The position numbers and the translations under genes are program-made. The notes under the pieces are model-generated. The model did not search any database. It was not told the DNA's origin and saw nothing but the letters and a program-made list of their open reading frames with translations. This document shows, in pieces, positions 5,872-19,048 of a stretch of 37,516 nt of DNA. This stretch comes from Dichelobacter nodosus (GTDB lineage: Bacteria > Pseudomonadota > Gammaproteobacteria > Cardiobacteriales > Cardiobacteriaceae), in contig NZ_LGVW01000029.1 of the NCBI RefSeq assembly GCF_001263335.1, positions 1 to 37,516 on the forward strand, given 5' to 3'. The number at the start of each line of letters is the position of its first letter. The first letter of the stretch is position 1.

Positions 5872-5872
<1 letters not shown>
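5129..5872 (-). CDS. Nif3-like dinuclear metal-centre protein (YbgI/DUF34 family)
   Basis: This 247-residue protein has the Nif3-family metal ligands in order: His63-His64 in LLVHHGYFW, Asp101 and the adjacent His103 in PLDQHATLGNN, and His215-His216 with Glu219 in GHHSTETFG. Family members form hexameric rings with two metal ions per subunit. Their substrate is not established; GTP cyclohydrolase-type activity has been proposed for some. The ATG at 5872 overlaps the murA stop codon by one base (TAATG), so it is translationally coupled to murA and is the last gene of the envelope run. Functional meaning of that coupling is unknown. Confidence 0.9.
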
Positions 5873-7344
<1,472 letters not shown>

Positions 7345-7355
<11 letters not shown>

Positions 7356-7653
7356 ATTCCGTCCATGCTTGAAAATCAATTTGATACAGCGCTGCCAATT
7401 CGGTAATACTCGCCGGCAACGGTCGCCAAACAAGGTGCGCATTTTGCTGCCGACAATAACGGCACCACCAAATCAAAGCCGCAACGCCCGCGCTGTCGCA
7501 TTGCCGCACAGCGTGCGCATCGACGGTAATCCGTTCTGGCAATGCTTGCGAAAAGCGAGAAAACGGCTTTTGCGCTAATGACAACTGCGTTAATGTTGCA
7601 GATAAATGTAAAACGGCGTCAGCGTCAATCGTGCCGAGCGGAGTTTCTATCAT
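7345..7653 (-). CDS. mlaB: STAS-domain protein MlaB
   Basis: This 102-residue cytoplasmic STAS-domain protein has 'ITVDAHAVRQCDSAGVAALIWW' (about 42-63), matching the STAS beta strand-loop-helix with its conserved D-S-x-G-x turn. In the Mla system MlaB binds the ATPase MlaF and is needed for stability and activity of the MlaFEDB transporter. The ATG overlaps the mlaC stop by one base (TAATG), and its end overlaps ibaG. STAS proteins are poorly conserved in sequence, so position in the mla operon carries much of the assignment. Confidence 0.9.
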
Positions 7654-8249
7654 TACTGCATCGTCCGCATTTTGGCGATTAATTGATCAACGCTACCTTG
7701 TTGCAATTCGGTATCAAAAGTATTGCGATAACTCGTCATCAGCGATACGTTTTCAAAAGTTGCATCGTAGACTTTCCACGCACCATTTTTGAAATAAACC
7801 GCAATAATCACGTTTGCATTCGCATTGCTGCCCGAAACTTGCGCGCGAACTTGCGCCCGTTGATATTTATCCACGCTCGGCACGTTGAGCACGCGCACGC
7901 TAGCGCCGGCATAATTTTGCCAACCTTTGGAATACACGCGAATCAGCAATTCACGAAAAGCAGTGGTAAAAGCGTCAAATTTGCCGCTATCTTTCACGCT
8001 CTTTAAATGTTTTCCCAAAGCAATTTCAGACATTTTGACAAAATCTAACTGCGGTGCAATTTCGCGACTGATAAATTCATGAAACGCCGCCGGATTGGCG
8101 TCGTAAGTAGCTTTATTATTATTTAAATCTTGCGTTAACCGCGCGATTTGCGTTTCCACTTCCATTTTTGCGCTTTCGCCCGTTGGTTCTGCGGCAAAAA
8201 CCGCCCCGCTCAATAATAAAGCCGCAACGGCTAAAAAATGCTTTTTCAT
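7653..8249 (-). CDS. mlaC: Periplasmic phospholipid-binding protein MlaC
   Basis: This 198-residue protein has a cleavable signal peptide (about 1-19, ending AVFA before AEPTG). It is followed by an MlaC/Ttg2D-type domain with 'PQLDFVKMSEIALGKHLK', 'FRELLIRVYSKGW' and a C-terminal 'VYDATFENVSLMTSYRNTFDTEL'. In the pathway it shuttles phospholipid through the periplasm between the inner-membrane MlaFEDB complex and the outer-membrane MlaA partner. MlaA is not in this window. It follows mlaD by 21 bases. Since MlaD is enlarged here (see mlaD), the MlaC-MlaD docking surface may differ from the model. Confidence 0.93.
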   Translation of the reverse strand: MKKHFLAVAALLLSGAVFAAEPTGESAKMEVETQIARLTQDLNNNKATYDANPAAFHEFISREIAPQLDFVKMSEIALGKHLKSVKDSGKFDAFTTAFRELLIRVYSKGWQNYAGASVRVLNVPSVDKYQRAQVRAQVSGSNANANVIIAVYFKNGAWKVYDATFENVSLMTSYRNTFDTELQQGSVDQLIAKMRTMQ

Positions 8250-8270
8250 CTTTTTTCCTCGTTTAAAAAT

Positions 8271-9083
8271 TTAAGATTTTCCCAAACCGGTTACAAATTG
8301 AGAAATTAACTTTTCCAGCACCACGCTGGAATTCGTGTATTGAAAACTATCGCCATCAACGAGCATCGTCGATTCGCCGCCAACGCTGATGCCAATATAT
8401 TTTCCACCAATAATACTCGTACTTAAAATATCAGCGCTACTATCAATCGGCAACCGGTTAAATTGGCGATCAATTTCCAGTTGCACCACTGCCATAAAGG
8501 TTTCTTGATCTAAATGAATGGATTTCACGCGCCCGATTTGCACGCCGGCTAAAGTCACCGGTGCATCAATCGTTAATCCGCTGATATCATTAAATTTTGC
8601 TTCTAAAAGATAAGACGATTCCGGATAAAAATTCCCTTTTCCGCCGCCGAATTGTTGTAATAACTTCTCTAAAACCAAAGCACCGCCGGTGCGGATTAAA
8701 GTATCATCTTGTTTTAAAACATCTTTTGATTCGCCCGATAAAATCCCGATATATTTTTCCCCCAGCAAGCCCGCGGTTAAAATTTGCGCCGTACTATCTG
8801 CCGGCAAAGAAAAACGTCCATCAATATCCAAACTCACCACCACTTCTGCAGTTTTCGGATCTAACGTCATACCGCTGATTTGTCCAATTTGAACGCCCGA
8901 CATCGACACCATCGCCTGTTTTCCCAAACCGCTGACATCACCAAAACGCGCATAAATGCGATATGTATCCTGCGCCTGAAAACCGCCCAAACGGCTGGCT
9001 TTGAGTCCTAAAAAAAACAATCCGCCCACTGCCAATAAAACAAAAAAACCGACAACGGACGCAATTCCATGATTTTTTTTCAT
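8271..9083 (-). CDS. mlaD: MlaD with two tandem MCE domains
   Basis: This 270-residue substrate-binding subunit of the Mla phospholipid transporter is anchored by one N-terminal helix (about 9-29). E. coli MlaD is 183 residues with a single MCE domain. Here two MCE domains follow one another, about 40-133 and 158-252. They align along their whole length: SGVQIGQI with AGVQIGRV, LPADSTAQIL with LPIDSSADIL, and GEKYIGI with GGKYIGI. Each is followed by a matching short helix (LVLEKLLQQF, VVLEKLISQF). The gene lies exactly where mlaD belongs, between mlaE and mlaC. I infer an internal duplication giving two stacked hexameric rings, somewhat like PqiB (three MCE domains) or LetB (seven). Start ATG at 9083. 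Confidence 0.94.
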   Translation of the reverse strand: MKKNHGIASVVGFFVLLAVGGLFFLGLKASRLGGFQAQDTYRIYARFGDVSGLGKQAMVSMSGVQIGQISGMTLDPKTAEVVVSLDIDGRFSLPADSTAQILTAGLLGEKYIGILSGESKDVLKQDDTLIRTGGALVLEKLLQQFGGGKGNFYPESSYLLEAKFNDISGLTIDAPVTLAGVQIGRVKSIHLDQETFMAVVQLEIDRQFNRLPIDSSADILSTSIIGGKYIGISVGGESTMLVDGDSFQYTNSSVVLEKLISQFVTGLGKS

Positions 9084-9091
9084 AGCTACCT

Positions 9092-9880
9092 CTATAGAGC
9101 AAACATCAGCGATGTTAACAAAAAATCAACCGCCAGCACTGCTAACGATGACAACACGACGGTTTTCGTTGTTGCCTGCGCCATACCTTGCGCCGTCGGC
9201 ACGCATACAAATCCCTGAAAAACGCTAATCGCCGCACACAACCAACCAAAAACCAAACTTTTTACCCCAATCCCCAGCACAATATTTTGATAAAAACCAA
9301 CGCCGCGTTGTAATTGCGACCAAAAAATGCCGTTATCCAACCCCAAATGCGGCACGGCAACCCAATAAGCGCCTACCATCGCAGTGGCAACAAAAATAAT
9401 AGCGAGCAACGGCAATGCCAATAAAGCGCCGAAAAAGCGCGGCACGCCAATTTGCGCGAGCGGCTCAACGCCCATCATCGTCATCGCGTCTAATTGCTCG
9501 GTTGTTTTCATTAAACCAATTTCTGCGGTAATAGCGGATCCGGCGCGTCCGGCAAACAATAAAGCCGTCACCACTGAACCTAATTCACGCATCAAAGAAA
9601 GCGCTACCAAAGTAGACGTTGATTGTTCGGCGCCGAATAACGACATATTAATAAACGCTTGCAGCGCTAAAACCATGCCAACAAATAATCCCGAAACCAT
9701 AATAATGGGTAACGACAACACGCCAGCATGAAACAACGCTTTAATCCACAACATCGGGCGCCGCCATAAAATCGACAATTGCCAATGTAACTGCAGCGTT
9801 AAAAAACTAAACTCGGCTAACGCGGCAAGTTGCGTTAACACATAAACCCCAATTTGATTGATTTTAGCGATGATCCGCAT
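9092..9880 (-). CDS. mlaE: Mla transporter permease MlaE
   Basis: This 262-residue inner-membrane permease has the MlaE/Ttg2B signatures 'SGLFVGMVLALQ', 'RELGSVVTALLFAGRAGSAITAEIG', 'TTEQLDAMTMMGVEP' and the C-terminal 'KTVVLSSLAVLAVDFLLTSLMF'. It forms the membrane core of MlaFEDB, which moves phospholipid between the inner membrane and the periplasmic MlaD tunnel. The start chosen is ATG at 9880 with a strong GGAGG five bases upstream, overlapping the end of mlaF by 17 bases. An earlier in-frame start would add 34 residues lying inside mlaF and is less likely. mlaD follows after 8 bases. Confidence 0.94.
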   Translation of the reverse strand: MRIIAKINQIGVYVLTQLAALAEFSFLTLQLHWQLSILWRRPMLWIKALFHAGVLSLPIIMVSGLFVGMVLALQAFINMSLFGAEQSTSTLVALSLMRELGSVVTALLFAGRAGSAITAEIGLMKTTEQLDAMTMMGVEPLAQIGVPRFFGALLALPLLAIIFVATAMVGAYWVAVPHLGLDNGIFWSQLQRGVGFYQNIVLGIGVKSLVFGWLCAAISVFQGFVCVPTAQGMAQATTKTVVLSSLAVLAVDFLLTSLMFAL

Positions 9881-10679
9881 CTTCGCCTCCCAATAATTCT
9901 TGACGATAATCCACCGCCGGATAATGAAATGCCACTGGACCGTCAGCATAACCATGAAAAAATTGTGCAACCAATGGATCATCGCTTGCCATTAAACGTT
10001 CTGGCGTATCATAGGCAGCGATTTTTCCTGCTGATAGCAATAAAATTTTGTCGGCAATTCGACATACTTCCACCAAATCATGGCTTACTACCAAACTGCT
10101 CATGCCCAAACCACGGTTTAAATTTTTCACCAACGATGTCAACATCGCCAAAGAAATTGGATCCTGCCCCGTAAACGGTTCGTCATAAATCATCAATTCA
10201 GGTTCCATCACCATAGCGCGTGCTAAAGCTGCCCGCCGCGCCATACCGCCGGATAATTCGCTGGGCATTAAATGCGCCGCACCGCGCAATCCCACCGTTT
10301 GCAGTTTTAAGGAAACAATAATATCAATCAGCGCTTGATCCATATTCAAAACTTCTTTCAGCGGAAATGCGACATTTTCACCAACCGTCATATCGGTAAA
10401 CAACGCATTATTTTGAAACATCATGCTTATCCGTCGCCGCAATTGCATCAACTGTTTACGATTAAGTTGCCCGATATCTTCACCCAAAACGGTAATTTTG
10501 CCCTGTTGCGGTTGCAATTGTCCGGTAATTAAACGCATCAAAGTGGTTTTACCGGTGCCGCTTGGTCCCATAATTGCGGTAATTTCGCCGGCGGCAATTT
10601 CCACGCTGATATCATCAAAAATTGTGCGCCCGCCACGCGCAAACCGCACATTTTCTAAACAAACAACTGTTTCCGTCAC
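9864..10679 (-). CDS. mlaF: Mla transporter ATP-binding protein MlaF
   Basis: This is a 271-residue ABC ATPase (numbering from the GTG start). It has Walker A GPSGTGKTT (38-46), signature LSGGMARR (about 142-149), Walker B LMIYDEP (162-168) and H-loop SHD (about 199-201). The C-terminal extension after the nucleotide-binding domain is typical of MlaF, where it clasps the neighbouring subunit. It powers the MlaFEDB lipid transporter at the cytoplasmic face. I prefer GTG at 10679, because GGGAG lies eight bases upstream; the TTG at 10685 is only three bases from the same site. It begins 24 bases after the tamB stop on the same strand, so tamB and mla genes probably share a transcript. Confidence 0.93.
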   Translation of the reverse strand: MTETVVCLENVRFARGGRTIFDDISVEIAAGEITAIMGPSGTGKTTLMRLITGQLQPQQGKITVLGEDIGQLNRKQLMQLRRRISMMFQNNALFTDMTVGENVAFPLKEVLNMDQALIDIIVSLKLQTVGLRGAAHLMPSELSGGMARRAALARAMVMEPELMIYDEPFTGQDPISLAMLTSLVKNLNRGLGMSSLVVSHDLVEVCRIADKILLLSAGKIAAYDTPERLMASDDPLVAQFFHGYADGPVAFHYPAVDYRQELLGGEDADHR

Positions 10680-10703
10680 ACCCAAAACTCCCGCTATAAC
10701 TCG

Positions 10704-13700
10704 TTAATTCGTTTCAAATTCATAAGAAAAATCAACCGCATTTTCCAGCGGCTGCGCGCTCGCTTCCACGCTCAAACGATCGGTAATTTGATAACGCGTT
10801 AAAAATTTGGTGATGCTGGTAAAAAAATCCGATTGCATGCCGATATAAATATCTTCTAAAAGATACTTTCCAGCTTTTAAACCACCAATGCCGAGCTCGA
10901 AAACGTCCAAACCCGTTTTTTCCGCCACACCTTTCGGAAACATGCCCTGCGTTCCTAAAACGGCAGCCGTTTGCAATAAAGCCGTCGAATCCGTTGCCGC
11001 ATCGGGCGGGCGTCCAAAAACCAAATACGACAAAATCGCCGAATCAGGCATTGCCGGATCAGAAGTTAACGTTAACTGCATTTGTTGCACGCTGCCGTGA
11101 ATTCTGGCGCCGGCTTCTACATGTTTAATTTCGCGCAGCACCAAAATATCGAGCACGGGATTGGTAATATCATTGGAAAACGTAATCCAGCCGCGGCGAA
11201 TATCCATTTCCTGCCCGTACAATTCATATTTTCCCTGCGCCACTTCAATCCTGCCGCGCCCTTTTAACGCGCTGTTCGGTTCGGCGACCACGTCTAATTT
11301 ACCAATTAACCGCAATTTTGCTTTGCCGCCGGTAAAAAAAACGCGATCGCCTAATGTCACCGCAATATTGAGAGCCACCGGCGATTTTTGTTCACCGTTT
11401 TTTTCGGATACCGGTTGATTCACAATCACCACATCTGGCGAAATCGCAGTGGCGGAAGACGTATCAGGAATATCAATTTTCGCTTCGGAAATAGCAATAT
11501 TGCCGCGCACCGCAACGCCCGAATCAGGACGAATGCGAATATCAAAATTTGGGCTGGCAATTAAACGGATTTTTTTCGAATTGGCTAAAAGTAATTCTTT
11601 TCCTGATAACGCCAATTGCATGGTCAGCGGCTGCAAACGCAAAACGCCGTCTGCCGTTAAATTGCCTTTGGGTGTGCCGATATTACCTTTAATATCAATA
11701 TCACCGCTTTTTTGCGCGCTGATGCGTAAACGAATATCTTTTAATTCCGTTGCGTATTCCGGCACCACAACTTTGCCGTTTTCTAAAAAAATCTCGCCAT
11801 AAACCCGCGGTTTTGCCACCGCGCCGGAAAAAGAAACATCGCCTTTAACGCGTCCTGTTAATTCCGAAATTTGCGGCACTAAATAGCGAAACGTTCCCAC
11901 GTCAGCGATATCTAAATTTAACGTTCCTTGAATGTGCGGTTGCGAAAATTGACTGATTAACGCTTCCGCGCGCACGCGTCCGCTATCGCCTAAATCAAGC
12001 AATAAACGGTTATTAACTTGCGTCGCGCTCATTTTGCTTTCCAGCGTCGCAGTTTTTAAATTGATCATTAAAGGCGGTTTATCCGGCAATATCATTTGAA
12101 TTTTGCCCGCGGTTAATTGCAATTGACTGTGACCGCGCAGCGCACCATTTGCCTCAATTGCCACCGCGCCGGCGCCTTTTAATTGCGTTTCCAGCGTTAT
12201 ATTTTTAGGAATAAAGGCTTGAAAACTTTTGGGATCCAGTTTTTCAATACGATAATCCACTGCCATCGTCGCCGCTTTTTTCGCCGTCACGCACAACGCC
12301 GAAAACGCATCAGCCAAACATAAATCCTCAATACTCAATTTTTCCGCAGCAATATCAATTGCGCTGGGGCGGCGTAATTGCCAATGAAGATCCGTGCCGG
12401 TCAACGTTAATTGCTCCAATTTTCCCGCCCACCGATCGCGCCCGATAAATCCACCTTTGGCTTGCAATGAAGGATTATAGTTACCGCCTTCCGATTGAAG
12501 CGTTACACGATGCGCATCATAACTGCCGTTCGTCGTTAAACGCAGCGCTGGCCATTGTTGATCGGCAACATCAATCCCTTTAAGTTCAATATGATTTTTA
12601 AAAGCACCGCCTGCCGTCAACGCGCTATCGGTTTGCATAGAAAGCGCGCCCAATTTGTACTCCTGATAAGCCAAATGCTCGCCGCTGATTTTAGCTTGCA
12701 AATGCGGCGCTTGCAGCGTGCCGTTTAATTTTGCTTGCGCATACAATTGACCGCTGATTTTGGGATAAAGTGCCGCTAATTTTTTGCCGTCAATCAATAA
12801 ATTAACATCAATTTTTTGCGCGTTAACGTTGCCATCAGCCACAAAATGATTATCGCCAATAAAAATATCGGCTTTATCAATTGCCACGCCATTTTGAGCA
12901 CTTTTGATCTGCATTTCACCTTTTAAGCGTTCGCCCAACCAATGCCCGTCAAGCTTTTTCAAAGCAAGCGCTGCCAACAATTCTTCCGCGTTTTTACTGC
13001 CTTTCGTATGAAATTCAGCGCTGATCTGGCTTGAAAATTCTGGCAATAATTTTTGCAAATTAAGATGCGAAAGCGCGCCGTCAAACGACCAATCGAGCGT
13101 TGGTTGATAATTCAAACGACCATTAAGTTGTGCGGTGCCGTCTAAAGTGTGCACGGTTAACGCTATTTTTTCTGCCGCATTTTGGGTTAACTGCGTTTGC
13201 GCTTGAAAACGGGTTTCTGGAATACTTTCCCCCGCCATTTTGCCCGCGCTTTTTACCGCAATCCCTTGTTTTAAATCGCCGTCAAAATCCAGCGTGCCCT
13301 CGGCATTAATACTTTTTTGCCAACGCAGTTTTTGCCACTGCACCGCGCCTTTTAATTGCGGATTGTCCAATGAACCGCCCAAATGCGCATCAACAGCAAT
13401 GGCGCCGCCCAAATCCGCCGCCAATTTTTCCAAAGCGCGCGCATCAATTTTCAGTGACAAATCCGCTCGCTCGGGACGCGCAAAACCGTTTGCTGTTATC
13501 AAATTATCGGCGAAATTTAATTTAAATTGATCGACTTTTAATTCTTTGCCCAATAATTCCACGCGTCCGCTGCCATTAATGGGATATTTTTGCCAGTGTC
13601 CGAATAAATTTTGTAGCTGCAATTGGGCGGAAATACCTTCTTCCGTTTGTTTTCCTTCGCTGCTGATGGAACCTTCTAATTTCAAATCCAAATTTTGGTT

Positions 13701-14798
13701 GTATTGCCGCGCGTCAATGTGATCAAAAGCCAAATGCGTTTGCCAAGAAAAGGGCGCCGTATGCACATCGCCGGTTAAACGCGCGCTACCGCCTAAAGTA
13801 TGCACCACGGCATCAAGCATACGAACGGCATCAGGCGCCAATTGCGCGCTCAATTCCAAATCCGCCGCCGGAATATTTTTGCCAGTAACCGCGGTTTTAA
13901 CGTTCAAATTTAAATCGTCAAACGCGCCCACCAATTGCGCACTACCTTCTTTAATGGCGACGGCATCGGGCGCATAAAAAACCGTCCAATTGCTATTTAA
14001 ATCTAAATGTTGTTTTGCCAGTTCAACGATTGCCTGCGTTTTTAATTCCGCTTTCAACGCGCCCTCGGCAACCAATTTAACGTGAGGACGCAACGCGCTG
14101 CCCGTTATCGCTAATTGCGCAGTTTGTTTTTGCTGCGGGAAATCCAACTGCGTATCGGCAGCAATATCAAGCGGATAATCGCCGGTCAAATCCAGCGCGC
14201 CGTGAACGTTTAATTGTGCCGGCGGTAATTCGGATTCTGGTAACAATTGATCGGCTTGCAACGCGGTTTTAAGCGTGATGCGGCTGCCGGCGCCGTGCAA
14301 TTCCGCGGAAAAAGTATCAAGCGCTAACAGATTTTTTCCGGATTGCTTAACATTTAATTGTTCAATTGCCAGCCGATCAATATCAATAATCAACGGCAAT
14401 CGAATTTCCGGCAACTGCTTTGGCAACGGCGCCGATGGCGTGTCATCGTTTTTTGGGGATTCCGGCAAATCGATTTCCAAAGCGGTAGCGCTTAATTCGC
14501 GCACGTGAAATCGTTTTGCTTCAAAAGAAACCGCGCTATCGATGATGAACTGATCGCTGTGCAGATTCAGTCCCGCACCGGAAAAGGAACAATTACGCCA
14601 AATTTGCTGTGCGAATAAATGTCCACTAATGGCATCGCAGTGCAATTTAAAAGGTGTTAAATGATTAATCATTGTCGGTATTTTTTTAAAACCGCGTTCA
14701 GTGGTTAATAAAAGAAACGCGGTAATCGTCAGCGCAAACAATAAAAAAACACTGCCTAACAGTAACCGTTTAAAAAAAATCCCGATTGTTTTTACCAT
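10704..14798 (-). CDS. tamB: Translocation and assembly module protein TamB
   Basis: This very long protein (1364 residues; E. coli TamB is 1259) has one N-terminal membrane anchor (about 8-31), then a continuous repetitive beta-rich region. It ends in the conserved DUF490/TamB domain with 'ARIHGSVQQMQLTLTSDPAMPDSAILSYLVFGRPP' split around residues 1255-1290. TamB spans the periplasm as a hydrophobic groove. It works with TamA in outer-membrane protein insertion and is implicated in phospholipid transport to the outer membrane. The start chosen is ATG at 14798 with AGGA upstream; an in-frame TTG at 14813 is also possible. tamA lies directly upstream (70-base gap) and mlaF directly downstream. 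Confidence 0.95.
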   Translation of the reverse strand: MVKTIGIFFKRLLLGSVFLLFALTITAFLLLTTERGFKKIPTMINHLTPFKLHCDAISGHLFAQQIWRNCSFSGAGLNLHSDQFIIDSAVSFEAKRFHVRELSATALEIDLPESPKNDDTPSAPLPKQLPEIRLPLIIDIDRLAIEQLNVKQSGKNLLALDTFSAELHGAGSRITLKTALQADQLLPESELPPAQLNVHGALDLTGDYPLDIAADTQLDFPQQKQTAQLAITGSALRPHVKLVAEGALKAELKTQAIVELAKQHLDLNSNWTVFYAPDAVAIKEGSAQLVGAFDDLNLNVKTAVTGKNIPAADLELSAQLAPDAVRMLDAVVHTLGGSARLTGDVHTAPFSWQTHLAFDHIDARQYNQNLDLKLEGSISSEGKQTEEGISAQLQLQNLFGHWQKYPINGSGRVELLGKELKVDQFKLNFADNLITANGFARPERADLSLKIDARALEKLAADLGGAIAVDAHLGGSLDNPQLKGAVQWQKLRWQKSINAEGTLDFDGDLKQGIAVKSAGKMAGESIPETRFQAQTQLTQNAAEKIALTVHTLDGTAQLNGRLNYQPTLDWSFDGALSHLNLQKLLPEFSSQISAEFHTKGSKNAEELLAALALKKLDGHWLGERLKGEMQIKSAQNGVAIDKADIFIGDNHFVADGNVNAQKIDVNLLIDGKKLAALYPKISGQLYAQAKLNGTLQAPHLQAKISGEHLAYQEYKLGALSMQTDSALTAGGAFKNHIELKGIDVADQQWPALRLTTNGSYDAHRVTLQSEGGNYNPSLQAKGGFIGRDRWAGKLEQLTLTGTDLHWQLRRPSAIDIAAEKLSIEDLCLADAFSALCVTAKKAATMAVDYRIEKLDPKSFQAFIPKNITLETQLKGAGAVAIEANGALRGHSQLQLTAGKIQMILPDKPPLMINLKTATLESKMSATQVNNRLLLDLGDSGRVRAEALISQFSQPHIQGTLNLDIADVGTFRYLVPQISELTGRVKGDVSFSGAVAKPRVYGEIFLENGKVVVPEYATELKDIRLRISAQKSGDIDIKGNIGTPKGNLTADGVLRLQPLTMQLALSGKELLLANSKKIRLIASPNFDIRIRPDSGVAVRGNIAISEAKIDIPDTSSATAISPDVVIVNQPVSEKNGEQKSPVALNIAVTLGDRVFFTGGKAKLRLIGKLDVVAEPNSALKGRGRIEVAQGKYELYGQEMDIRRGWITFSNDITNPVLDILVLREIKHVEAGARIHGSVQQMQLTLTSDPAMPDSAILSYLVFGRPPDAATDSTALLQTAAVLGTQGMFPKGVAEKTGLDVFELGIGGLKAGKYLLEDIYIGMQSDFFTSITKFLTRYQITDRLSVEASAQPLENAVDFSYEFETN

Positions 14799-14868
14799 CA
14801 AATCCTGCCCCAAATTGAAAAAGATGCCGAACCGTTTTTCGCGTACAGTAAACGTCCGTTACAAATGT

Positions 14869-16668
14869 TTATAAATCCAATTGCGTTCCAATGGTGAGAT
14901 GAATGCGCACATTGTCGCCGTAATCTTTGTCAAAACCGTGCCCCAAATCGAGGTGAATGGGCCCGACGGGCGATTTCCAATGCACGCCTAATCCCGCGCC
15001 CACTTTTGCTTTAAAATCATCTTTAAAGGCATCGCCAGCGTCTACAAATGCCGCCGCTGCCCAATCGTCTTTAAAATAATATTCATATTCTAAAGAAGTG
15101 GTTGCAAGATATTTGCCGCCGATGTTGGTATTGGAGCTGTCGCGCGGACCGATATATTCATAACCATAACCGCGAATGCTGCGGTCGCCGCCGGCAAAAT
15201 AACGAAAACTCGGCGGTAAGCGTTGATAATCATCTGCCCAATTGGCGCCCAAATCGATTCGTCCAATCACGCGATTTTTGGCGTTAAATGGTTGAATATA
15301 AACGGCGCGAGCATTCGTTTGCGCAAAACTGATATCGCTTAATACGTTTTCAACGCCGCCTAATACTTCAAATTGAAATTGATATCCGGCATCGGGATTG
15401 AAGCGGTTATCGTTGGAGTTGTACGTCACGCTCACGCTGGGATACGTTAAAACTACTTCGTCTTTATCATTGCCGATGGTGAATTTTTCATATGCGGTGG
15501 TGATGCCCGCGCGCCAATCCCAATGATTTACGCGCCAGTTGTAACCGCCGCCGATAAAGCCGCGCCGGCTGGTGTAGCCCGTATCTTTAATTCTGCCGCC
15601 AAAATTGAGGTAGTAATAATCGGTGCTGGGGTGCGCCGCAGGAATGCGGTACATATTATTGAATTCACTATTTTTTCTCGAGGCATATAAACTGCTGGAA
15701 AAATTATGTCCATAACGATTGACCCAGCGCCAATCAAAATCGATTTTGCCGCGAATGCCAGAATCGGTGGAATAACCAATACCCAAAGCATAATGTTTGT
15801 TTTTATTCATTGTTAACTGCGCATCAATGGGCACAATTTTTTGTTCGGGATCAGGTTTTCCGCCCACTAAAACTTGCCGAAAATAACCGCTACTTTGTAA
15901 ATCTTGTTGCAATTGCGTGATTTTGCGCGCTTCGTAAACCTCACCCTCGCGAATAGTAACAAAGCGTTGCAATAATGATTCATCGAGCGGCAAAATTTTG
16001 GGATTTTCGGATTGTTCGGCATTACTAAATTGCGTTTTTCCGAAATGATAACGTTGACCGCTGTCGTAATGAATCGCGATATCGGCGCTGTTTTGATCGG
16101 TATCAACGGCGATGCGTTTGGTATCAAATTTTCCATCAAAATAACCTTTGCGCGTTCCTAAAGCGGTGTATTCGTTTTTATACGTTTCATATTGTTGATG
16201 ATTGAGCGCTTTGCCGGTTTTAAACGGGTGTTTAGTCATCAATTGACGAAATTCTGCATCTTCTTTAGCTTCGCCTTCGGTTTTAATATCAATCGTACGA
16301 ATTAACGCCGGCGCGCCTAAATCCACGGTATAAATCACTTTAATTTTTTGATCGTTTAATTGTTTTTTATCAACGCGCACGTTGCTGTGATAATAACCAA
16401 ATGGTTGTTGCGAGCGCTGAATTTCTTCCACGCCGTTTTCAATTAAATAATTGATATAACTTGGTTGCGTAATTTTTTCGTTTTTCACGCGCGACAACGC
16501 CAAAAAAGCGCGGGCGTTTTCTAACTGTTTTTTATCCTTAATACCTTGAATTTCAATTTCGCTAATCTTTTGATCGCGCAATGATTCTAAAGATTCTTGC
16601 GCCGCCGCGCTCACCATCACCGCACCTGCTAATGCACAAATGCCATATCGCCAAGTTTTATTAAACAT
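14869..16668 (-). CDS. tamA: Outer-membrane assembly protein TamA (Omp85 family)
   Basis: This 599-residue Omp85-family outer-membrane protein has a signal peptide (about 1-22, VSAAAQ region). An N-terminal POTRA region (about 30-270) contains 'VIYTVDLGAPALIRTIDI'. The 16-strand barrel has the diagnostic 'GGDRSIRGYGYEYIGP' loop and a C-terminal beta-signal ending '...LTIGTQLDL'. TamA partners with TamB in inserting a subset of outer-membrane proteins. The start is ATG at 16668, two bases after the murJ stop and preceded by AAGGGA. Longer in-frame alternatives run into murJ and lack a signal peptide, so they are rejected. The murJ-tamA-tamB order makes co-expression very likely. Confidence 0.94.
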   Translation of the reverse strand: MFNKTWRYGICALAGAVMVSAAAQESLESLRDQKISEIEIQGIKDKKQLENARAFLALSRVKNEKITQPSYINYLIENGVEEIQRSQQPFGYYHSNVRVDKKQLNDQKIKVIYTVDLGAPALIRTIDIKTEGEAKEDAEFRQLMTKHPFKTGKALNHQQYETYKNEYTALGTRKGYFDGKFDTKRIAVDTDQNSADIAIHYDSGQRYHFGKTQFSNAEQSENPKILPLDESLLQRFVTIREGEVYEARKITQLQQDLQSSGYFRQVLVGGKPDPEQKIVPIDAQLTMNKNKHYALGIGYSTDSGIRGKIDFDWRWVNRYGHNFSSSLYASRKNSEFNNMYRIPAAHPSTDYYYLNFGGRIKDTGYTSRRGFIGGGYNWRVNHWDWRAGITTAYEKFTIGNDKDEVVLTYPSVSVTYNSNDNRFNPDAGYQFQFEVLGGVENVLSDISFAQTNARAVYIQPFNAKNRVIGRIDLGANWADDYQRLPPSFRYFAGGDRSIRGYGYEYIGPRDSSNTNIGGKYLATTSLEYEYYFKDDWAAAAFVDAGDAFKDDFKAKVGAGLGVHWKSPVGPIHLDLGHGFDKDYGDNVRIHLTIGTQLDL

Positions 16669-16670
16669 GC

Positions 16671-18197
16671 TTATCCCTTCCTTAATTGTCGCCAGCGTAC
16701 GCCAACCGCGTAAAGGCTGATGACGTAAATAACGATGCCTATCATAATTAATGCGCCTAAATAGCCCACGCGCATTCCGGTTGAACGCGAGAGCCAAGTA
16801 TCCATACTTCCTTGTAAATAATAAAGAAATAAAGCCATAATGCTGTTTGCGGTCACGATTTGAAACAGGGGACGCTTCAAAGAAAAACGCGCCAATCGCC
16901 CTTCTCGATATAAAAAATAGAAAAGCAAAGCAACATTGACCACCGCGGCAACGCTACTTGCCAATGCCAATCCCACATGTCCCCATAAACGGCTGAACAA
17001 AACCGCAACCATTATATTGGTTGCCATTGCCACAATGCCTGCTTTTACCGGCGTTTTCGTATCTTGCCGCGCATAAAATGCCGGCGCTAAAATTTTCACT
17101 AATACTAAAAAAACCGCCGCGCAGCCGTAAGCGCGCAAACTCATTGTTGTCATTAAAACATCGTGTTCTAAAAAATTTCCGCCGTAAAAAAGCGTTACCA
17201 AAATCGATGGCGCCAACATTACCAGCCCCGTTGAAGCTGCAGAACCGATTAATAAACCCCAGCGCAGCGCCCAGATTAAAGTATCCGTGAATTGCGTTTC
17301 ATTATTTTGCGCTTTTAATGCGCTTAATTTCGGCAAAATAACCGTACCTAACGCCACGCCGACCAAAGCAATCGGCAATTCTACCATTCGATCGGAATAA
17401 TAAAGCCATGAAATGCTGCCGGTTGCGAGCATAGATGCCAAAAAAGTATTCATTAAAACCGTTAATTGCCCGACGGAAGAACCGAATAAAGTAGGAATCA
17501 TCAAGCGCAAAATTTTTTGCACGCCAGCGTGATAAAAACCCCACCGCGGCATAACTAATAATTTTAATTTCCACAATAACGGCAATTGAATTGCCAATTG
17601 AATAATCCCGCCGATTAATACCGCCCAAGCGAGTTCAATGCCGCTGCTATCAGCATAAAAAGCGCGCCAAACGCATGCCATAATCAAAGTGATATTGAGA
17701 AAAACGGGCGTCAGCGCCGGCAGGGAAAAATAACCAAAGGTATTTAAAATGCCGCCTGCCATCGCAGTTAATGAAATCAATAAAATATAGGGAAAAAGAA
17801 TTGCCAACATTTCTTTGGCAAGTAAAAACTGTTCGGGTTTTGCGGTTAATCCGTGCGCCACGGCAAAAATTACGCCGCCCGCGCCAAAAACGCCCAAAAT
17901 CGTAATCACTAATAAAATGCCTAACAGCGTGCCGCTGGTATAACGCAATAAATCCGTTAATGCCGCCGGCGATGTGCTACGCGTGGCGGAAAAAACCGGC
18001 ACAAAAGCGTTTGCAAAACCGCCTTCGGCAAAAAACCGGCGCAATGTGTTAGGAATGCGTAACGCGGCAAAAAAAGGATCGGTAATGGTGACGCCGAAAT
18101 AGCGCGCAATCAGCATATCGCGCAATAATCCTAATACACGGCTGATTAACGTCATGATTGAAAAAACGGCTGATGATTTTGCCAACGAACTGATCAT
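16671..18197 (-). CDS. murJ: Lipid II flippase MurJ
   Basis: This 508-residue polytopic membrane protein of the MOP superfamily has about 14 transmembrane spans. Its conserved N-terminus is 'MTLISRVLGLLRDMLIARYFG', followed by 'DPFFAALRIPNTLRRFFAEGGFANAFVPVF', a near-invariant MurJ block (split across about 38-67). It flips lipid II across the inner membrane for peptidoglycan assembly. The ATG at 18197 overlaps the metF stop codon by four bases (ATGA), which fixes the start and implies translational coupling. A GTG 12 bases upstream is less likely. tamA begins two bases after its stop. Confidence 0.95.
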   Translation of the reverse strand: MISSLAKSSAVFSIMTLISRVLGLLRDMLIARYFGVTITDPFFAALRIPNTLRRFFAEGGFANAFVPVFSATRSTSPAALTDLLRYTSGTLLGILLVITILGVFGAGGVIFAVAHGLTAKPEQFLLAKEMLAILFPYILLISLTAMAGGILNTFGYFSLPALTPVFLNITLIMACVWRAFYADSSGIELAWAVLIGGIIQLAIQLPLLWKLKLLVMPRWGFYHAGVQKILRLMIPTLFGSSVGQLTVLMNTFLASMLATGSISWLYYSDRMVELPIALVGVALGTVILPKLSALKAQNNETQFTDTLIWALRWGLLIGSAASTGLVMLAPSILVTLFYGGNFLEHDVLMTTMSLRAYGCAAVFLVLVKILAPAFYARQDTKTPVKAGIVAMATNIMVAVLFSRLWGHVGLALASSVAAVVNVALLFYFLYREGRLARFSLKRPLFQIVTANSIMALFLYYLQGSMDTWLSRSTGMRVGYLGALIMIGIVIYVISLYAVGVRWRQLRKG

Positions 18198-19048
18198 AAT
18201 GCGTACCACCCTAAACGTTTTGCAATTTCAATTAAAGCATCGGCGCGATTCATCGTGTAAAAATGCAAACCAGGGACGCCTTCTGACACTAATCGTTGGC
18301 ATAATTGCGAGACAACGTCCGCGCCAAAATCCAATAATGAAGCGCTATCTTCTTGATAAGATTCCAAACGTGTGCGAATCCAGCGCGGAATTTCCGTGCC
18401 GCAATTATCTGAAAACCGCGCCAAACGAACGTAATTCGTAATGGGCATAATGCCCGGCACAATGGGAATGGAAACGCCCATTTTGACTACGTCATCACGA
18501 AACCGTAAATAAGCGTCGCCGTTGAAAAAATATTGCGTTACAGCTTCATTAGCGCCCGCCGCACATTTTTCATAAAAATTAATTAAATCAATTTGTTGTG
18601 TTTGCGCCTGCGGGTGCGTTTCCGGATATGCCGCCACCACAATATGAACGCTGTCGCCCCATTGTTTGCGCACTAAACGCACTAAATCGCGCGCGCTCAT
18701 AATATCGCCTAATTGATAAATTCCGGACGGCATATCGCCGCGTAATAACATAAGATGTTTGATGCCCAATTTTTGATATTGCGCCAACAGCGATGCAATT
18801 GCCCGTTTGTGAGACGCGACGCAGGTAATATGCGGCATAACGGCTCTTTCTGCTTCGCGACACAATGTTTTAACCAAGGCGATGGTTTGATCGCGCGTGG
18901 CGCCGCCGGCGCCGTACGTCACCGAATAATATTCACAATTTAAAAAAGATAACGCTTGACGCACTTCAGCCAGTTTTTTTTCTCCGATTTTCGTTGCTGC
19001 GGGAAAAAATTCGCAACTCAAACGTAATGAATTCGATTTTTCAATCAT
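18194..19048 (-). CDS. metF: 5,10-methylenetetrahydrofolate reductase MetF
   Basis: This 284-residue flavoprotein reduces methylene-THF to methyl-THF for methionine synthesis. Visible features are the catalytic Glu13 in SCEFFP, 'YSVTYGAGGATRDQT', 'HLMLLRGDMPSG' with the flavin-contacting Asp and 'QYFFNGDAYLRFRDD' in the folate-binding region. The start chosen is ATG at 19048, one base after the stop of the upstream lipoprotein gene. A TTG 27 bases earlier would overlap that gene, and neither has a strong ribosome site, so translation may be coupled. Its end overlaps murJ by four bases. A one-carbon gene inside an envelope operon is functionally unexpected. Confidence 0.92.
   Translation of the reverse strand: MIEKSNSLRLSCEFFPAATKIGEKKLAEVRQALSFLNCEYYSVTYGAGGATRDQTIALVKTLCREAERAVMPHITCVASHKRAIASLLAQYQKLGIKHLMLLRGDMPSGIYQLGDIMSARDLVRLVRKQWGDSVHIVVAAYPETHPQAQTQQIDLINFYEKCAAGANEAVTQYFFNGDAYLRFRDDVVKMGVSIPIVPGIMPITNYVRLARFSDNCGTEIPRWIRTRLESYQEDSASLLDFGADVVSQLCQRLVSEGVPGLHFYTMNRADALIEIAKRLGWYAL

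Follow-up and report, generated by a model that had tools for sequence, protein, structure and literature searches.

How MCE proteins with many rings (PqiB and LetB) originated from a protein with a single ring (MlaD) is an open question; how the two faces of the MlaD ring work with MlaE and MlaC is a second. MlaD hands lipids over between the inner-membrane transporter and the shuttle protein MlaC. Both are raised by the window (the whole 37,516-nucleotide stretch of Dichelobacter nodosus DNA that we analyzed), in which an intact mla operon encodes an MlaD with two MCE domains in tandem. We ask whether this protein is an MlaD, how often such proteins arose, and what the residues retained by each domain suggest about the arrangement of the rings.

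The tandem MlaD

The initial annotation placed an MlaD with two tandem MCE domains at positions 8271–9083, with no strand given. An open reading frame occupies exactly these positions on the minus strand (the plus strand is interrupted by many stop codons) and encodes a 270-residue protein in which the Pfam MCE family (PF02470; 133.8 bits vs a cut-off of 25.1) and the NCBIfam MlaD equivalog (TIGR04430; 271.6 bits vs a cut-off of 135) each match two stretches; the best single stretch for TIGR04430 spans positions 6–143 of the 146 in the profile. An MCE profile trained on MlaDs gives 138 and 150 bits for the two domains but at most 25 bits for any domain of Escherichia coli LetB and at most 16 bits for any domain of PqiB; from the scores with TIGR04430 and this profile, we conclude that the protein is an MlaD rather than a PqiB or LetB out of place. 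As in other members of the family, the gene is encoded with mlaF, mlaE, mlaC, and mlaB (7345–10685, minus strand), and an N-terminal transmembrane helix is present. A single MCE domain is typical of characterized MlaDs but is not demanded by TIGR04430; because the D. nodosus protein has two, we call it a variant and not an ordinary MlaD.

The two halves of the protein align end to end with one gap (50 of 117 positions identical, 43%; 63% similar; E = 2e-29), a likeness far beyond chance. This alignment is as the initial annotation described, as is the helix that trails each half (VLEKLxxQF; VLEKLLQQF in half 1 and VLEKLISQF in half 2), but the motifs that it listed as common to both halves are in part different: SGVQIGQ occurs in half 1 only (half 2 has AGVQIGR), and the shared pore motif GxKYIGI is GEKYIGI in half 1 and GGKYIGI in half 2. 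The similarity of the halves is almost erased in the DNA, so the duplication is old.

Reading from the N-terminus (all features on the minus strand), a transmembrane helix (residues 5–32, 8988–9071; AlphaFold2) that aligns with the MlaD chains of MlaFEDB structures is followed by the membrane-proximal MCE domain 1 (residues 40–133, 8685–8966; Pfam and TIGR04430, with a pLDDT of ~90 over most of its length), whose pore loop, T-A-G-L-L-G-E, retains the ancestral form in the alignment (residues 103–109, 8757–8777). A short α1 helix (VLEKLLQQF, 8649–8678; residues 138–145 in the model, of low confidence with pLDDT <50 for residues 136–150) and a Gly-rich interdomain linker seen in both the sequence and the model (GGGKGNFYP, residues 146–154, 8622–8648) lead to the distal MCE domain 2 (residues 155–252, 8328–8621; matched to 5uw8 by structure). 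The pore loop of domain 2, S-T-S-I-I-G-G (residues 221–227, 8403–8423), has lost the acid in the alignment, and the protein ends with the MlaC-side α1 helix in its ancestral form (residues 253–269, 8277–8327; alignment and AlphaFold2, with pLDDT <50 for residues 256–270).

The AlphaFold2 model, made from 19 sequences (the window and its relatives from the genome survey only), predicts that both MCE domains, and not just one, are folded; it is a monomer with a mean pLDDT of 80.5 and a pTM of 0.45 that does not fix the arrangement of the domains relative to each other. In the model, domain 2 spans residues 157–252 and the terminal helix residues 255–269. Domain 2 of the model superposes on the core of E. 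coli MlaD (5uw8) with Z 19.5 and an rmsd of 1.2 Å over 98 residues, and the transmembrane helix with domain 1 matches the MlaD chains of MlaFEDB with Z 17–18; two-domain pieces of LetB (e.g., 6vci) give Z 14.7 and an rmsd of 10.7.

Operon and genome context

The gene order is mlaF-mlaE-mlaD-mlaC-mlaB-bolA-murA, as in E. coli, with all of the genes on the minus strand: mlaF (ATPase; 9864–10685; Pfam and NCBIfam), mlaE (permease; 9092–9982; PF02405), mlaD, mlaC (periplasmic shuttle; 7653–8249; PF05494), mlaB (STAS protein; 7345–7653; PF13466), a bolA/ibaG-like gene (7131–7442; PF01722), and murA (5872–7131; Pfam). The partners of MlaD were said to be of normal size, and we find 273 residues for MlaF, 296 for MlaE as called, 198 for MlaC, and 102 for MlaB; the true start of mlaE is probably internal, giving a product of ~260 residues, because its relatives align from about residue 44. 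MlaA and a separate PqiB with three MCE domains are encoded elsewhere in the 1.45-Mb genome.

Directly upstream of the operon and on the same strand are tamB and tamA (10704–16797), so that two envelope systems adjoin, and murJ is next beyond them (16671–18209). MlaC has a one-residue insertion that is common to the Cardiobacteriaceae with a tandem MlaD (7653–8249 in the window and mlaC of L036 and L037) and absent from the aligned relatives with a single-domain MlaD; these carriers form one clade only, and our argument makes no use of the insertion. The Cardiobacteriaceae also encode a PqiB-type protein with three MCE domains; one reading frame (G003, C1:1969888–1970916) encodes 729 residues vs ~550–580 elsewhere in the family.

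Distribution of tandem MlaDs

A survey of related genomes for long MlaDs, which had been proposed with the initial annotation, found several. In the Cardiobacteriaceae, the 270-residue tandem protein is encoded by the D. nodosus genome and by both members of a sister genus (g2; two separate Cardiobacteriaceae MAGs according to NCBI), with 58% identity over the full length; because the sister genus has the same protein, the doubling in D. nodosus is inherited and not an artifact. The MlaDs of the other nine Cardiobacteriaceae genomes have one MCE domain. One of the nine (G005, L039:5837–6181) is apparently frameshifted just past the pore loop, by either a draft error or conversion to a pseudogene. 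In one genus of the family (L044 and L045; G006 and G010), mlaC does not directly follow mlaD; either other ORFs intervene or the stretch that was read showed no mlaC.

A class-wide sample added two genomes, G121, with two domains in 277 residues, and G135, with at least three. The latter count is a minimum: one contig (L078:6027–7055) ends inside domain 3, another (L088:1474–1950) carries domain 3 with mlaC and mlaB after it, and the ends of the two contigs share a 347-base overlap at 95%; more than three domains are therefore possible. A sample of the phylum added G591, a member of the gammaproteobacterial family f183, in which 36 of 59 genomes encode a tandem MlaD and the remainder a single one; the architecture is also found in f183 genomes assembled as single contigs. 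We had considered tandem MlaD a rarity (of 318 genomes that gave a match, three matched the tandem over its full length), a description that we dropped given its frequency in f183. The commonness in f183 makes the D. nodosus protein less of an oddity, but it also enables a test of how the faces of the ring are divided (below).

MlaC is retained beside all of the tandem and triple forms that we examined. MlaA is present in all of the tandem and triple genomes that were searched except G121, where it was not found in an assembly that is 76% complete. In G121 (L077:4769–6142), a gene for a 457-residue outer membrane efflux protein (TolC-type, PF02321) separates mlaC from the tandem mlaD.

Duplication history

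In trees of the individual MCE domains, domains 1, domains 2, and the single domains of the Cardiobacteriaceae form one clade (98–100%), those of f183 form another (100/99), and domain 3 of G135 groups with a single MlaD of its own family (100/99). The trees, which do not include PqiB or LetB, thus place both domains of the D. nodosus protein within the MlaD clade of its own family, as expected for the internal duplication of an MlaD that had been suggested from the sequence. When all of the terminal domains are forced into one clade, the topology is rejected (p-AU 0.005); when all of the domain 1s are forced into one clade, it is rejected in the larger tree (p-AU 0.0006; p-AU 0.014 for the domain 1s from outside the Cardiobacteriaceae) and borderline in the smaller tree (p-AU 0.052). 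These tests are limited by the 119 columns of the alignment and by long branches. On the rejections, we set aside a single common origin of the tandem MlaDs: at least two separate duplications of the MCE domain are well supported by the domain sequences, and four are likely. The duplication in the D. nodosus lineage is placed by sequence comparison in the ancestor of the two Cardiobacteriaceae genera, in which the branch lengths identify domain 1 as evolving faster than domain 2.

The separate tandem MlaDs serve as natural experiments: residues that only the first copy retains mark out one face of the ring, and those that only the last copy retains mark out the other.

Residue retention in the two domains

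The positions in this section are those of E. coli MlaD. The pore loop T103-x-G105-L106-x-G108-E109 is near-invariant in 36 single MlaDs, with an acid at position 109 in 35 of them. In the Cardiobacteriaceae, G121, and G135, every domain 1 has an acid at 109, which is replaced in all of the distal domains (by G, G, N, G, and S); conversely, position 118 and the α1 helix (I147L) have drifted in the domain 1s, whereas the last domains retain G118 and I147. We first recognized this pattern post hoc, in these three lineages, and then set it as a prediction ahead of the analysis of G591. The core of the prediction held in G591 (D109, S118, and L147 in domain 1; T109, G118, and I147 in domain 2), but the part that concerned T103 and G105 failed; loss by T103S and G105S/N is absent from the domain 2s of f183, so we dropped it as a general signature of distal domains, of which the loss of the acid at 109 remains a part.

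Counts in f183 (20 single and 32 tandem MlaDs) have the same form: an acid is found at 109 in 20/20 singles, 32/32 domain 1s, and 0/32 domain 2s; G118 in 20/20 singles, 0–3 of 32 domain 1s, and 32/32 domain 2s; and I147 in 20/20 singles, 2/32 domain 1s, and 32/32 domain 2s. Thus, at the MlaC-side positions 118, 146, and 147, domain 2 and not domain 1 has the form of the single MlaDs. Using a fixed rule in f183 alone, we picked the columns retained only in domain 1 (51, 53, 55, 64, 73, 107, and 109) and those retained only in domain 2 (116, 118, 120, 129, 138, 146, 147, and 151) and applied both sets to the Cardiobacteriaceae, G121, and G135. The sets divide 8 to 0 and 0 to 12, each as predicted (Fisher p = 8e-6, to be read as a guide only because columns within a protein are not independent, the lineages are few, and some positions had been seen beforehand); the remaining conserved columns divide 17 to 38.

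In E. coli, the β6–β7 loop (around 118–123) and the α1 helix (141–152) dock MlaC (PMC11289387, PMC10245069), and the pore loop that contains Leu106 and Leu107 contacts lipid at the place where MlaD rests on MlaE (PMC7790496). The complementary retention is thus consistent with a stack of two rings, the first on MlaE and the last docking MlaC; it also fits the suggestion in the initial annotation that a second ring changes how MlaC docks, as the docking face is retained in the last domain only. Position 109 itself is not among the contacts named in the cited papers and is a candidate MlaE-side determinant. The drift of the helix in domain 1 could result from ring–ring packing rather than from the loss of MlaC docking.

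Proposed architecture and alternatives

We favor, with a probability of about 0.74, a stacked two-ring MlaD in which ring 1 sits on MlaE and ring 2 docks MlaC, that is, a shuttle system that is one ring longer. Six tandem subunits would assemble into a hexamer that stacks two MCE rings on top of the MlaE dimer. Ring 1 (residues 40–133), with the ancestral pore loop TAGLLGE, would contact MlaE; ring 2 (residues 155–252) would sit atop ring 1 and extend the hydrophobic lumen, with lipid passing through both pores; and the β6–β7 loop and terminal helix of ring 2 would dock MlaC, which would still ferry lipid to and from MlaA, presumably in the service of lipid asymmetry. Because every tandem and triple form examined has MlaC beside it, the system would remain a shuttle system; an MCE ring is ~3 nm high, a stack of two or three does not reach across the periplasm, and, because both MlaC and MlaA are retained and one extra ring cannot span this distance, the system should work as a shuttle.

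An unlikely alternative, yet the one that survives best, is neutral tandem duplication, in which an extra MCE domain is tolerated without a new function and the changed residues record relaxed constraint. It would explain why relatives with a single domain in the same families manage without a second and why the branches of domain 1 are longer than those of domain 2 in the Cardiobacteriaceae. However, the tandem has been retained intact in two genera of the Cardiobacteriaceae and in 36 f183 genomes, the positions retained and lost are complementary and alike in separate lineages, and each copy is strongly conserved at its own positions; the last point implies selection on each copy, although this selection may merely preserve the two original contacts.

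We consider it less probable still that the tandem MlaD is an intermediate toward a tunnel, an evolutionary guess offered in the initial annotation, in which stacked MlaD rings would be starting to take over from the MlaC shuttle. Tunnels are formed by known multi-ring MCE proteins (PMC12436622), and G135 has expanded to at least three MCE domains. Nevertheless, MlaC remains beside every tandem and triple form examined, MlaA is missing, among the genomes searched, only from the incomplete G121 assembly, the rings are too few for the distance, and the conserved MlaC-docking face argues that the shuttle still docks.

Two further explanations are very improbable: capture of a PqiB- or LetB-type protein into the mla operon would account for the multi-MCE architecture only, and is opposed by the profile scores, the family-internal position of both domains, and the separate PqiB of D. 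nodosus; an assembly or sequencing artifact, conceivable in a draft of 36 contigs, is opposed by halves that are just 43% identical, by the full-length orthologs in the two MAGs, and by the single-contig f183 genomes.

Extending the two-ring, MlaC-docking reading beyond D. nodosus, we are inclined to think, with less assurance than for the D. nodosus protein itself, that MlaD has repeatedly gained stacked rings (two and, once, at least three) by separate duplications that each time divided the faces of the ancestral ring, the proximal for MlaE and the distal for MlaC. Such proteins would represent an undescribed multi-ring transporter that depends on MlaC and a repeatable route toward a multi-ring conduit. 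A description of tandem MlaD was not found in the open-access literature, to which our search was largely confined.

Comparison with known MCE systems

The MlaDs of the MlaFEDB complexes of E. coli, P. aeruginosa, and A. baumannii resemble the D. nodosus protein in transmembrane helix, MCE fold, pore loop, α1 helix, operon, and partners; however, they have one MCE domain where D. nodosus has two, and in the latter the contact faces are apparently split between the copies. PqiB also has tandem MCE domains on one chain, but it has three of them, an extended C-terminal needle of helices, which the D. nodosus protein lacks, and PqiA and PqiC as partners, with no MlaC; the D. nodosus protein has two domains in 270 residues and mla neighbors rather than pqiA and pqiC, and the MCE domains of PqiB score far below MlaD on the MlaD-trained profile. 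LetB (YebT) has stacked MCE domains, as we propose here, but its seven rings span the periplasm and it works with LetA; it is 13–18% identical to the D. nodosus MlaD, which has two domains and is encoded beside MlaE and MlaF.

Rare proteobacterial multi-MCE proteins with domain numbers other than three or seven were counted by Isom et al. (2017; PMC5561183); in passages of its main text, that paper does not discuss tandem MlaD, and the minor architectures are listed in its supplement. The MlaD of Veillonella (PMC10665443) and Mpc of Brucella (PMC12436622) also depart from the single-ring shuttle MlaD, but they are lengthened by helices and a β-barrel or a PqiC-type partner and have no MlaC; in D. 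nodosus, the lengthening is by duplication of the MCE domain, and MlaC is kept.
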